The notes beneath the pieces were generated by a model that did no database searches, was not told the origin of the DNA, and was given only the letters and a program-made list of their open reading frames with translations. A stretch of 59,772 nucleotides of DNA from a virus. Each line of letters starts with the position of its first letter. The stretch's first letter is position 1. The translations under genes were made by a program, and so were the position numbers. Positions 6,154 through 59,772 of this stretch are shown piece after piece. The stretch is from the IMG/VR virus record IMGVR_UViG_3300042319_001458, positions 1 through 59,772 of that record; one strand, 5' to 3'.

Positions 6154-6502
6154 ATATAAGCCGATTTCGACGCCTTCGCGATCACATGATGGCCAGACAA
6201 TCCGTCAAATGCTTATATCTATTCCTCGCTTAAAATGGCTTGAGCAAGACATAGATGATTGCCAATATTATCGTCAGTATAAAAACCCTAACGACGTAAT
6301 CAAAAAATTACCTATAGATATCCGTAGATCGCCTACATGGTGCGCGACGTTAAAAGGACAGCCGCTTTCACCGCAAGAGAAGAAAGTTGATGAGCTGCGC
6401 ACGTCCATGCAGCCAACAGCGATAGGCCGCGCTTTAGGTCTAAAGGTCTCAACAGTTCGAGGAATGCTTGCCAGAATAAGAGCCAAAAAAGGTGAACTAT
6501 GA
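6131..6502 (+). CDS. HTH-containing protein, 123 aa
   Basis: ATG 6131 with GGAGATAGAGAAA upstream is better placed than the first in-frame codon at 6086. The C-terminal third ('MQPTAIGRALGLKVSTVRGMLARIRAKKG') is a good helix-turn-helix: helix, turn around 'GLKVS', recognition helix rich in Arg/Lys. The N-terminal part is basic and helical. It precedes and overlaps the GcrA-like gene by 4 bases, so the two are probably made together. Likely a DNA-binding regulator; its target is unknown. Confidence 0.7.
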   Translation: MQIEKVSKYKPISTPSRSHDGQTIRQMLISIPRLKWLEQDIDDCQYYRQYKNPNDVIKKLPIDIRRSPTWCATLKGQPLSPQEKKVDELRTSMQPTAIGRALGLKVSTVRGMLARIRAKKGEL

Positions 6503-6924
6503 GACAGATGACGGAAGAAAAAAGGCAACGCATAGCAGAGCTTTGGAATCAAAACATGCCAAGCTCAAAAATTGCTGAAGAGGTTGGCGTAACAAGAAAC
6601 GCCGTTATTGGCGCTGTATATAGATTGCGAAAACGCGGCGAGATAATAAAAAGCGCCAGTGAAAAAAGACAATATAAGCCGCGCGCTAAAAAGCCTCTTG
6701 CGATACGAAAGAACTTTCGCAAGCCTCCAGAATTGGGCAAGCCTGTAGGATTGATGAAACTCACAAGCCAGTCATGCAGATTTATTGTTTCAGAGGAAGG
6801 CGCTGAAGAGACGCTTTATTGCAACAACCAAATAGATCGCGCATCATATTGCACAGAGCATTATAAAATTTGTTATGTGCCGCCACGCAGAGCTATTGAG
6901 GGAATGATAGCTGGTGATAAATAA
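6499..6924 (+). CDS. gcrA-like: GcrA-family cell-cycle regulator homologue
   Basis: 141 aa, ATGA overlap with the preceding gene. Residues 4-46 match the GcrA HTH: 'EKRQRIAELWNQ' helix, 'SSKIAEEVGVTRNAVIGAVYRLR' turn and recognition helix. Residues 90-130 match the GcrA C-terminal motif, with Cys93 in 'SCRF', Cys108, the 'YCTEHY' signature (Cys118, His121) and 'YVPPRR'. GcrA is an alphaproteobacterial factor that binds sigma70-RNA polymerase and methylated GANTC promoter sites. The linker and exact C-terminal spacing differ from chromosomal GcrA. Phage copies may redirect host transcription. It closes the early operon. The family call is strong; a methylation-dependent role here is inference. 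Confidence 0.85.
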   Translation: MRQMTEEKRQRIAELWNQNMPSSKIAEEVGVTRNAVIGAVYRLRKRGEIIKSASEKRQYKPRAKKPLAIRKNFRKPPELGKPVGLMKLTSQSCRFIVSEEGAEETLYCNNQIDRASYCTEHYKICYVPPRRAIEGMIAGDK

Positions 6925-51642: not shown

Positions 51643-51945
51643 TTAAAAATCGTCGTCTGCGTCGACTGGGTTACTCTTTGCGCGATCCATTGCCGCCTTT
51701 CCCAGGGGGGTGTCCGCCAGCATGCCCAAAGCATCCATATAGACTGCCAGAAGAGCTTGCTCCTCGGCCCTCTTGGCAGCATCCTGCTTACGAAGAGCAA
51801 CGATCTTTTTAATAATTTTTGGGTCAAACCCATTTACCTTGGCCTCGACGTAAACTTCTTTGATGTCATCGGCGATTGCTGCTTTTTCTTCCTCGAGCTT
51901 TTCGATTCGCTCAACAAGCGCCTTGATCTGGTTGTTGGTTACCAT
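51643..51945 (-). CDS. gapR-like: GapR-family (DUF2312) nucleoid protein
   Basis: 100 aa. 'QIKALVERIEKLEEEKAAIADDIKEVYVEAKVNGFDPKIIKKIVALRKQD' matches DUF2312 almost along its length: a long N-terminal coiled coil, 'NGFD-K-I-I-K-K-I-V-A-L-R' DNA-binding section and a short C-terminal helix. GapR is an alphaproteobacterial protein that clamps overtwisted DNA and is needed for replication and cell-cycle progression. The acidic tail 'DADDDF' is an extra. It is the second leftward gene from the divergent promoter region at 52.15 kb. Family call strong; phage role inferred. Confidence 0.9.
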   Translation of the reverse strand: MVTNNQIKALVERIEKLEEEKAAIADDIKEVYVEAKVNGFDPKIIKKIVALRKQDAAKRAEEQALLAVYMDALGMLADTPLGKAAMDRAKSNPVDADDDF

Positions 51946-52146: not shown

Positions 52147-52181
52147 TTGACGTATGAAGAAACTTCACTATTATACGAATC
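52147..52181 (+). promoter_or_regulatory. Promoter P1 with palindromic operator and GANTC site
   Basis: -35 TTGACG (52147-52152), 16-base spacer, -10 TATTAT (52169-52174). The spacer holds a perfect palindrome, TGAAG-AAA-CTTCA (52155-52167). Two bases after the -10 lies GAATC, a GANTC site (52177-52181). The same layout recurs at 53535. On the opposite strand TATAAT (52175-52170) could serve leftward genes with a weak -35, making the palindrome a shared operator. Confidence 0.85.
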
Positions 52182-52210
52182 ACTGATTGATATTGAACTG
52201 GAGACTGACA

Positions 52211-52522
52211 ATGACAAACGCTTCAAACACCGCCGCTCTCGCCGATGCCTACGCTGCTCTTAAGCACGAGGAAAACTCAATCAAGGCTCGCCTCGAGACT
52301 GTCAAGGCCGAGATCCTGTCGGTTGGCGACAAAGAGATCGTTGGCGACACCTGCGTCGTTGCAGTCGTCGACAAGAAAGGCGCTGTATCGCTCGACAAGG
52401 ATGCTGCGATCTTGCTGCTCCGTCAGCTGGGCGCGACCGACGAGCAGATCGCTTCGCTCAACAAGGTTGGCAAGCCTACGCAGGCTCTGCAAATCAAAGC
52501 CAAGCTGGCGCTCGCAATCTAA
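52211..52522 (+). CDS. Hypothetical protein, 103 aa
   Basis: ATG 52211 follows GGAGACTGACA. 'TNASNTAALADAYAALKHEENSIKARLETVKAEILSVGDKEI' is a coiled coil; 'GDTCVVAVVDKKGAVSLDKDAAILLLRQLGATDEQIASLNKVGKPTQALQIKAK' forms a strand pair and helix. It resembles small host-interaction proteins of phages but no family is recognised. First gene of the P1 transcript. Confidence 0.7.
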   Translation: MTNASNTAALADAYAALKHEENSIKARLETVKAEILSVGDKEIVGDTCVVAVVDKKGAVSLDKDAAILLLRQLGATDEQIASLNKVGKPTQALQIKAKLALAI

Positions 52523-52614
52523 TGCGAGCCCTCTGGCTGGTCCTCACAACATTGGCGGGCACGTTGATCGTGCCTGCTCTGTCCCTAGCAACGCTGTATA
52601 TTGTTTATCATTGA
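52522..52614 (+). CDS. 30-aa single-span membrane peptide
   Basis: TAATG overlap with the previous gene. A basic start and a long hydrophobic stretch ('ALWLVLTTLAGTLIVPALSLATLYIVYH'). It is the second such tiny membrane peptide in the genome. Translational coupling to the gene before it and the strong membrane character support it. Role unknown. Confidence 0.55.
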   Translation: MRALWLVLTTLAGTLIVPALSLATLYIVYH

Positions 52615-52625
52615 TGGAGATTGAT

Positions 52626-52841
52626 ATGATCACTCTGACAAAACCAATTCCAGATAGTCCTTTACATGATTATGATGACGATACCATCAAAGCAATGATC
52701 AAATTTTGGCGCAACGATATGGAACTTGAACCAGACCAAACAATTTCTCCTTTAATGTATAAAAACTTAATCGATAATGCTTACAAAGTTCTTGGTTATA
52801 GATGCGCTATTCAATACCTAGAAATGTATGGAGACGAATAA
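52626..52841 (+). CDS. Hypothetical protein, 71 aa
   Basis: GGAGATTGAT-ATG leader. Acidic and soluble ('DSPLHDYDDDTIKAMIKFWRNDMELEPDQ', 'LGYRCAIQYLEMYG'), helical. Unrecognised; part of the P1 small-gene set. Confidence 0.65.
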   Translation: MITLTKPIPDSPLHDYDDDTIKAMIKFWRNDMELEPDQTISPLMYKNLIDNAYKVLGYRCAIQYLEMYGDE

Positions 52842-52842
52842 A

Positions 52843-53043
52843 ATGAGTATGGCAATCTCAAATAAACTGTCGGGCTTTTATGTTTCTAGTTTGCCAGTTG
52901 TCTTTGCCGGCGATTTACTAATGATTGGCACGATGGTGCTTGGCATGGGCATTTATTTTGAGAACGCTTCAACAATCTTTTTTGGCCTGTATGACATAAC
53001 GCTTGGCGCAATCTTCGTTAAAAACACAATCAAGGAGAGTTGA
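52843..53043 (+). CDS. Two-span small membrane protein, 66 aa
   Basis: ATG 52843 (GGAG 9 bases upstream) is better than the in-frame ATG at 52828, which overlaps the previous gene. Two hydrophobic helices ('SSLPVVFAGDLLMIGTMVLGMG' and 'STIFFGLYDITLGAIFV') with a short loop. Membrane location is clear; function is not. Confidence 0.65.
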   Translation: MSMAISNKLSGFYVSSLPVVFAGDLLMIGTMVLGMGIYFENASTIFFGLYDITLGAIFVKNTIKES

Positions 53044-53044
53044 T

Positions 53045-53494
53045 ATGGGAACTCGCGCTGTATATTCGTTCAACGATGGTGACGATAAATTCCACGTCTA
53101 TAAGCACTGGGATGGATACCCAGAAGGCGCTGCACTTTTCTTCATGAATGCTATTCCATACGCATGGGGCGGCACTCGTTTTGAGGCAATGGATTTTGCC
53201 GCAGCATTTGTTGCTGGAAACAAAAAAGAAGGCGGTGGCGACGTCTACTTTACCAAGGGCCCGAACCGTCATGGTGATTTAGAGTATATTTATGAGCTTT
53301 CTCAAAACAGTCTTGGTGGCCTAATGATTAAAGCTTACAGCGTTAATTGGGACGAAACCAAAAACAAAACCGTGAAAAATAAAAAGCCAATGTTCAGCGG
53401 ATCTCTATTTGCATTTATCTCTAACTATGGCGACGAAGAAACAAGAAAACGCGCCGAGGAACAGTGGCTGCCGAAAGAAAAACAGGCGGCGTAA
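53045..53494 (+). CDS. Conserved phage protein, 149 aa
   Basis: GGAGAGTTGAT-ATG leader. 'MGTRAVYSFNDGDDKFHVYKHWDGYPEGAALFFMNAI' is a recognisable phage and bacterial family start ('TRAvi.f.d..........-v-kHwDGYPeG') of unknown function. It ends with a basic stretch and is the last gene before a strong terminator at 53497. Confidence 0.75.
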   Translation: MGTRAVYSFNDGDDKFHVYKHWDGYPEGAALFFMNAIPYAWGGTRFEAMDFAAAFVAGNKKEGGGDVYFTKGPNRHGDLEYIYELSQNSLGGLMIKAYSVNWDETKNKTVKNKKPMFSGSLFAFISNYGDEETRKRAEEQWLPKEKQAA

Positions 53495-53496
53495 AT

Positions 53497-53524
53497 AAAA
53501 GGGGGTTCGGCCCCTTTTTTATTT
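53497..53524 (+). terminator. Strong intrinsic terminator ending the P1 operon
   Basis: A perfect 8-bp stem (AAAAGGGG with CCCCTTTT, loop GTTCGG) followed by TTATTTTA. It ends the P1 transcript just before promoter P2, so the two small operons are separate units. Confidence 0.92.
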
Positions 53525-53534
53525 TACACCATGC

Positions 53535-53569
53535 TTGACATGTGAAGAAACTTCATTATATTACGAATC
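53535..53569 (+). promoter_or_regulatory. Promoter P2, duplicate of P1, with palindromic operator and GANTC site
   Basis: -35 TTGACA (53535-53540), 16-base spacer, -10 TATATT (53557-53562). The spacer carries the same TGAAG-AAA-CTTCA palindrome (53543-53555) at the same place as in P1, and GAATC (53565-53569) again follows the -10 by 2 bases. Similarity continues downstream into 'ATTGATATG'. A duplicated regulatory module. Confidence 0.88.
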
Positions 53570-53796: not shown

Positions 53797-54039
53797 ATGA
53801 CCAAACAACCTAAACCAGACTTTATCGTTCACGCAGGCGAGTGGGCAACTGTGTGGCAATTCCAGCCTGTATCAAAGCAGGCTTTGGATCTGCTTGAAGA
53901 GATCCACATTGAGGATTGGCAATGGACTGGCAACGGCATGTTTGCCGTTGATCATCGCCCTGCACGCGATCTTGCTCGCTACATCGTCGGCGAAGGCATG
54001 ACGGTGTTTCACCCTGAGTATGGATATTTTGGAGGTTGA
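53797..54039 (+). CDS. Hypothetical protein, 80 aa
   Basis: GGAGCTTGAT-ATG leader immediately after the previous stop. 'WATVWQFQPVSKQALDLLEEIHIEDWQWTGNGMFAVDHRPARDLARYIVGEGMTVFHPEYGYFGG' has a DUF-like helix and aromatic tail. The pattern 'QPVS..A..WL.-H......W.G-...VdhRy...L...m...G' recurs in small phage proteins of unknown function. Confidence 0.65.
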   Translation: MTKQPKPDFIVHAGEWATVWQFQPVSKQALDLLEEIHIEDWQWTGNGMFAVDHRPARDLARYIVGEGMTVFHPEYGYFGG

Positions 54040-54043
54040 TATC

Positions 54044-54373
54044 ATGGATCAAAAACGCCCATACATCCTCGCGTCAAACCAGCTGTGCTACGACGCCAAC
54101 CCAACGCTATGGAATACATTTTGTGCACTGACTGGCCGACCTATCGGCCAGCCTAATTATAATTGGACTGAACAAGATGTTGTTGTCGCCATGCTTGCAA
54201 GAGGATTAAACAAAAATGACGCCGGAAAAAATGATTCAGATAATGGACAGGCAGGGAATGTCGAACCAGGACGTAGCTTCAATATCAGGCGTGACGTATC
54301 GTCAGGTAATGTCATGGCGGTCAGGCCAACATCCAGTTCCGATGATGCTGTCCTTTTTGTTGTTGGCTCTTGA
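54044..54373 (+). CDS. Hypothetical protein, 109 aa, with extended overlap with an HTH gene
   Basis: GGAGGTTGATATC-ATG leader. The first ~58 residues ('DQKRPYILASNQLCYDANPTLWNTFCALTGRPIG', 'EQDVVVAMLARGLNKN') look like a genuine small protein; after that, from about 54216, the sequence becomes a disordered shadow of the HTH gene in the next frame. Either the 158-base overlap is real, or the gene ends early in the related phages and a frameshift has extended it here. Confidence 0.55.
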   Translation: MDQKRPYILASNQLCYDANPTLWNTFCALTGRPIGQPNYNWTEQDVVVAMLARGLNKNDAGKNDSDNGQAGNVEPGRSFNIRRDVSSGNVMAVRPTSSSDDAVLFVVGS

Positions 54374-59313: not shown

Positions 59314-59500
59314 ATCAATCTCCATAAAGTCAAGTCTCAGCTGACCCGCCAACAAGTGGTGGAGCCATCGACCATAATGTGGGCAGGTCAGCTAAGTTAC
59401 TTAGGGTAAGTCTCTCCTCGCGATTCTGTCAATCCACAGAATACAGTTGACTGAAGATTACCCACCCGCTACATCTAGACCGAATCGATATTGAGGCTTT
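59314..59500. promoter_or_regulatory. Divergent control region for early operons
   Basis: 187 bases between divergent genes. Leftward: TTGACA (59432-59427) with a weak -10 around TACCCT. Rightward: TTGACT (59447-59452), 17-base spacer, then weak TACATC. A 7-bp inverted repeat ATTCTGT-CAATCC-ACAGAAT (59423-59442) overlaps the leftward -35. GANTC sites lie at 59422-59426 and 59482-59486, the second near the expected rightward start. Candidate early promoters; the -10 boxes are poor. Confidence 0.55.
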
Positions 59501-59772
59501 ATGAACAACGATCCCTTCGCCGCTTACGGCATCCAGCATCTATCTCCATCAACCTGCAACCTGTTCATCGGGTCGCAAGCAGCGTTTGTATTGGACAAAT
59601 GCATGAAGAGAAAGGGGCAGGTGGGCGCAGCCGCACACAGAGGAACAGCTGTAGAGAAGGGTATTGTTTACGGCCTTGAGACAGGCGTCTTAGACGACGA
59701 ATGCATAAAGGTAGCGAAGGATGAGTTCTGGCGACTTATGGCTTTATCAAGTGACCCTGCAGCCGAAAAAGA
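59501..59772 (+). CDS. PD-(D/E)XK exonuclease (5' part; continues at 1)
   Basis: ATG 59501 begins 'MNNDPFAAYGIQHLSPSTCNLF', the typical start of phage RecB/Cas4-like nucleases ('-H-L-S-P-S-(T/S)-...-F-...'). The frame runs to the window end and continues, through the 127-bp repeat, into bases 3-611. The 'AAAHRGTAVEKGIVYGL' helix is the conserved 'G...H..vE' section of the family. See the entry at 1-611 for catalytic residues and role. Confidence 0.87.
   Translation, partial: MNNDPFAAYGIQHLSPSTCNLFIGSQAAFVLDKCMKRKGQVGAAAHRGTAVEKGIVYGLETGVLDDECIKVAKDEFWRLMALSSDPAAEK
59646..59772. repeat. Right copy of 127-bp direct terminal repeat
   Basis: Identical to 1-127. See the left copy. The last complete codon of the nuclease gene at the window end is 59770, and codon phase agrees with position 125 of the left copy, which supports closing the circle at this repeat. 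Confidence 0.97.

Follow-up and report, generated by a model that had tools for sequence, protein, structure and literature searches.

We report here that two promoters, P1 and P2, of an uncultivated phage, probably one of alphaproteobacteria, carry the same palindrome in the spacer between their -35 and -10 boxes, that this palindrome keeps its position and symmetry across related phages, and that its sequence varies among them with the recognition helix of a small HTH protein. We consider it highly likely that a dimer of this protein keeps RNA polymerase off both promoters, repressing P1 in trans and P2 in cis, in an Aca-like early shut-off. As judged from sequence, the two elements appear to be a repressor-operator pair of Aca-like kind in an undescribed phage group, a reading that we regard as well supported.

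The window, meaning the whole stretch of 59,772 nt that was analyzed, ends in an exact 127-bp terminal direct repeat (1-127 and 59646-59772), and the record therefore probably represents a complete genome. Since no integrase or resolvase family match (PF00589 or PF00239) was found in the record, a lytic life style appears likely; a role of the HTH protein as a lysogenic repressor is less likely. A GapR homolog (PF10073, 1.1e-30) is encoded next to P1 at 51643-51945 (-), close to where the leftward block begins, and a GcrA homolog (PF07750, 1.6e-16) at 6499-6921 (+).

Promoters, operators, and genes of the two units

The features of the promoter regions are as follows.

52147-52174 (+): P1 promoter, with -35 box TTGACG (52147-52152), 16-nt spacer, and -10 box TATTAT (52169-52174); layout shared with relatives
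52155-52167 (+): operator O1 in the P1 spacer, TGAAG-AAA-CTTCA (TGAAGAAACTTCA); position conserved in relatives
52177-52181 (+): GAATC at P1, between the -10 box and the likely +1; kept in close relatives only
53535-53562 (+): P2 promoter, with -35 box TTGACA (53535-53540), 16-nt spacer, and -10 box TATATT (53557-53562)
53543-53555 (+): operator O2 in the P2 spacer, identical in sequence to O1
53565-53569 (+): GAATC at P2, between the -10 box and the likely +1
52137-52132 (-): TTGACA of a possible leftward promoter, followed by 16 nt and AAAAAT; 10/12, about 18 bp from the operator

A preliminary description of this DNA had stated that P1 and P2 share the -35 box, a 16-nt spacer with the palindrome, the -10 box, and GAATC, and direct reading of the sequence bears this out. 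Both spacers are 16 nt long (17 or 18 nt if the -10 box is read differently), and 41 of 48 bases are identical over 48-nt stretches (CTTGAC...GATTGATAT). As sigma-70-type promoters, P1 scored 10/12 and P2 11/12, which ranked them highest or close to highest in a promoter scan of the region. The 13-mer TGAAGAAACTTCA occurs exactly twice in the 59.8-kb record and nowhere else in it, with about 0.002 occurrences expected for a given 13-mer on both strands (2 x 59772 / 4^13). The genes of the P1 unit and those of the P2 unit show no evident mutual similarity, and family searches with the genes of both units in the window returned no confident match.

52214-52522 (+): first gene of the P1 unit, of a 102-aa family without assigned function; a member is present in 31 of 35 loci
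52626-52841 (+): small gene of the P1 unit, no assigned function
52843-53043 (+): small gene of the P1 unit, no assigned function
53045-53494 (+): last gene of the P1 unit, no assigned function
53497-53519 (+): hairpin with T run, terminator-like, separating the P1 unit from P2
53592-53795 (+): first gene of the P2 unit, no assigned function
53797-54039 (+): second gene of the P2 unit, no assigned function
54044-54373 (+): ORF in a different frame from the HTH gene that it overlaps; its length is 109 aa in the window and in relatives L165, L216, and L010
54216-54440 (+): 74-aa HTH protein, proposed repressor, with a predicted fold like those of Aca2, HigA2, and MqsA; its recognition helix (about residues 28 to 35) is proposed to read the operator

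The P2 unit ends with the HTH gene, which also closes the early block in those relatives that were examined. Because the terminator-like hairpin splits the P1 unit from P2, the HTH gene is assigned to the P2 unit, and P1 would be acted on in trans. The ORF at 54044-54373 (+) shares about 158 nt with the HTH gene and might be an overlapping gene or a frameshift product.

Conservation of the spacer operator in related phages

TerL searches combined with promoter patterns gathered some 200 related viral contigs, and an HTH profile detected 39 distinct homologs among the TerL-related viral contigs. Under a strict rule, 35 of the 39 were associated with operators, 79 in total; inspection added those of L309 and L023, bringing the count to 37 of 39 HTH proteins, and no operator was found for L015 and L235. 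The operator promoters lie upstream of the HTH gene on the same strand, with up to six per phage. When the palindrome center was measured from the start of a -35 box matching at least 5 of 6 positions, with perfect 5-bp arms required, distinct early-strand palindromes were centered at offset 14 in 31 cases and at offset 15 in 8; none of the remaining offsets between 9 and 44 held more than 5. On the opposite strand, the same count gave four palindromes at offset 14 and one at offset 15. Position and symmetry are thus conserved across relatives, as the preliminary description had asked of a functional site, and its suggestion that a protein bound in the spacer would act on both promoters at once is supported by this pattern.

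The sequence of the operator varies in ways that preserve its symmetry. In L216, the central triplet is inverted (TTT for AAA) and the arms are kept, as a symmetric dimer site would allow. In other phages both arms have changed jointly with palindromy kept (GGAAG/CTTCC, CGAAA/TTTCG, and CGAAT/GTTCG), and the palindrome is always centered in the spacer. Some operators are imperfect at d2, mainly in the RRT, RRS, and RAV groups. The promoters themselves range from near consensus in L315 (TTGACA-17-TATAAT) to family members with weak -10 boxes (3 of 6).

These counts also bear on the proposal, made in the preliminary description, that one protein at a shared divergent region switches early to late transcription. 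P1 does face away from a leftward block starting near the GapR gene, and RNA polymerase at P1 could hinder the possible leftward promoter about 18 bp away. However, operators occur almost only on early-strand promoters (39 versus 5 at offsets 14 and 15), the possible leftward promoter lies clear of the operator, and L010 lacks the leftward TTGACA; we therefore regard such a switch as unlikely.

The GAATC site fared differently from the palindrome: it is present at both P1 and P2, as described earlier, and recurs in promoters of the nearest relatives (two of three in L165, in L216, and one of two in L010), but it is absent further out. GANTC sites are depleted 2.3-fold in the record (95 versus 220 in shuffles), and GAATC also occurs, without the palindrome, at the likely start of a third probable promoter near 59447. 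Despite these two observations, GAATC was rejected as a GcrA/CcrM element, as relatives further removed do not retain it.

A looser scan of viral sequences yielded mostly extra matches without a -10 box that look like chance occurrences in coding sequence, with L105 as a useful addition. In the nearest deposited phage by TerL (MW202675, 60%), the architecture is absent around the TerL gene. Literature searches for the palindrome and for early promoters of this kind returned nothing relevant. On the minus strand of the short contig L066, in which no HTH gene was seen, a second palindrome, GAAG-TAT-CTTC, directly follows the first operator at about 410-450 and covers the -10 region. Behind the operator promoters of many relatives, for example L191, L048, L054, and L308, a short hairpin of the form CGGTC-N3..8-GACCG with varying loop length lies at the likely mRNA 5' end, and L080 and L306 have a hairpin at the same place formed by TGGTT and AACCA. 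Behind the promoters of relatives, the mean z of this 5' hairpin was -0.93 versus -0.28 in flanking controls; in the window, it is weak or absent.

Predicted fold and proposed operator recognition of the HTH protein

Modeled together with 22 family members, the HTH protein is predicted to form five helices (pLDDT 92, versus 77 for a single-sequence model). The nearest solved folds are those of Aca2 (Z 9.5), MqsA (9.1), HigA2 (8.9), Aca10 (8.1), Aca1 (7.4), and the 434 repressor (5.4), values that, being middling and common among small helical domains, indicate the class of the protein and not its function. Matches to BURRH in a PDB sequence search were discarded, as they were sums of many insignificant repeats. 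In HMM alignments, the profile runs without offset against the 434 repressor and with an offset of one against Aca2, placing Aca2 R30, Q33, and Y34 opposite residues 29, 32, and 33. These three residues of Aca2 were reported to be important for recognition of its promoter (PMC9410881).

The operator half-site can be written xGAAy, and its two variable bases vary with residues 30 and 32, both within the predicted recognition helix (residues 28 to 35). Glutamine at residue 30 goes with G at y, as in the window (TGAAG) and in L315 and L040 (both GGAAG), threonine, serine, or cysteine mostly with A, and alanine with T or C. At residue 32, glutamine goes with C at x, methionine or isoleucine with T, and arginine, threonine, or asparagine with G or A. 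When all pairs of residues and operator bases were ranked, the pairing of residue 30 and d2 came first (z 11.1) and that of residue 32 and d6 second (z 10.5); because the ranking compares columns sharing one tree, it controls only partially for descent. Mapped onto the TerL tree, the Q30 state shows a single change and d2=G two, so that most of the correlation follows clades. Residue 30 yields one independent pair and residue 32 yields three; these agreed under almost every random pairing and never ran counter to the rule, at a number too small for significance. We suggest that residue 30 reads the base at position 2 from the dyad and residue 32 that at position 6, and that R29 probably touches the invariant GAA core. 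The HTH protein encoded from 54216 had been put forward earlier as a candidate spacer binder, and this covariation with its recognition helix points in the same direction, that is, to predicted binding.

In principle, another conserved phage or host protein could bind the operator. More specifically, the palindrome might be bound by a repressor or nucleoid protein of the host, with the phage promoters mimicking those of the host. Phages often copy host promoters, and the possession of GcrA and GapR homologs implies that this phage interacts with alphaproteobacterial host regulators. In contrast, the operator changes between related phages along with the phage HTH protein, and a genome scan with TTGACNNNTGAAGAAACTTCA gave 21 matches spread over unrelated phyla, near chance and with no clear alphaproteobacterial cluster, so that the search for the palindrome in the host proposed earlier yielded, in this one scan of genome contigs, chance-like matches only. 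We judge a host site to be very improbable. The HTH family itself is not common in hosts, given that its profile produced five weak, mostly partial matches in 385 genomes of the class of a Pelagibacteraceae MAG (taken as Alphaproteobacteria).

Proposed mechanism and relation to known repressors

We propose that P1 and P2 serve early expression as strong promoters of sigma-70 type, that the spacer of each contains an operator to which a dimer binds, and that host RNA polymerase would transcribe both units after phage entry. The HTH protein would then build up and dimerize, and the dimer, placing one recognition helix into each GAAG half-site, would cover the promoter and exclude RNA polymerase. 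Repression of P2 in cis would amount to negative autoregulation and would be accompanied by repression of P1 in trans, so that early proteins would be made in a brief burst and then shut off. A spacing of 16 to 18 nt already suits RNA polymerase, which favors a repressor over an activator of the MerR type. Together with near-consensus boxes, this spacing indicates active promoters, and the simplest reading is that a dimer bound in the spacer would occlude them.

Activation from the spacer by DNA bending in the manner of MerR appears very improbable. Bending had been suggested in the preliminary description, and palindromes inside spacers are typical of MerR targets, which have spacers of 19 to 20 nt. 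However, no such overlong spacer was found here (16 to 18 nt), promoters with near-consensus boxes such as that of L315 should fire unaided, and the HTH fold matches repressors and antitoxins, not MerR. That the repeat merely reflects a recent promoter duplication without regulatory meaning, as the identity of 41 of 48 bases between P1 and P2 might suggest, is scarcely credible in view of the palindromy persisting, always spacer-centered, where both arms changed together.

The proposed repression by promoter occlusion would resemble the action of Aca2 and of Aca1/Aca10 in several respects: a run of small early genes, the presumed regulated operon, has a small HTH gene at its 3' end, a near-consensus promoter of the HTH operon carries an inverted repeat inside its core, and the models predict a similar fold with corresponding recognition-helix residues. 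In all ten bacterial Aca families analyzed, the repeat lies within the core promoter (PMC9410906). Among Aca2-type phages, the Pasteurella phage CFP3 has its palindrome in a 17-nt spacer (TTGACT-ggtcgtaattgcgacca-TATAAT), Pm86 has one between boxes weaker than those of CFP3, and in ZF40, TGTTCGCGATTGCGAACA runs into TATAAT. The operator described here (GAAN-N3-NTTC) differs from that of ZF40 (GTTCGC-N4-GCGAAC) in sequence and in half-site orientation; with the geometry the same, this supports a protein that works like Aca, not membership. The HTH protein is also shorter than Aca2 and only marginally similar to it in sequence (E 0.001), the phages have as many as six operator promoters each, and family searches of the window genes detected no anti-CRISPR gene. 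To our knowledge, anti-CRISPRs have no universal signature.

In the archaeal virus SIRV2, many small early genes share a cassette, and Aca8 was proposed to shut them off (PMC11065993). The present phages likewise have many small, poorly conserved early genes, each behind the same regulatory cassette, and one proposed HTH regulator, whereas SIRV2 uses archaeal TATA/BRE promoters and a wHTH protein, with no sequence in common. With the lambdoid Cro and CI proteins, represented by the 434 repressor, the HTH protein shares a lambda-repressor-like HTH with the same numbering in the profile alignment and the presumed core-promoter occlusion, but each promoter here has a single isolated operator, and no tandem OR-type arrays occur in the window.

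Comparison alone thus ties an unnamed HTH family to its predicted site, with a proposed residue-to-base reading. Tentatively, and with more doubt than confidence, we raise the possibility that these proteins found a new family of Aca-type repressors in alphaproteobacterial phages, with a two-residue operator code and an operator-marked regulon of undescribed anti-defense and host-takeover genes; if this is true, such genes could be listed by promoter search alone. The arrangement of TTGAC, spacer palindrome, and TATNNT would offer a sequence handle for early-expressed, probably host-directed genes in a large phage group known mainly from metagenomes. In relatives, the blocks from operator to HTH gene encode an ArdC-like anti-restriction protein, whose gene in L038 immediately follows an operator promoter, as well as DNA (cytosine) methyltransferases, a beta-clamp-like protein, and a UvrD-like helicase. 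These contents fit a role in host takeover or anti-defense, which would extend to the window genes by analogy only. One relative's early block also holds a gene matching sigma-70 regions 3 and 4 (PF04545, 6e-06), possibly encoding a phage sigma-like factor.
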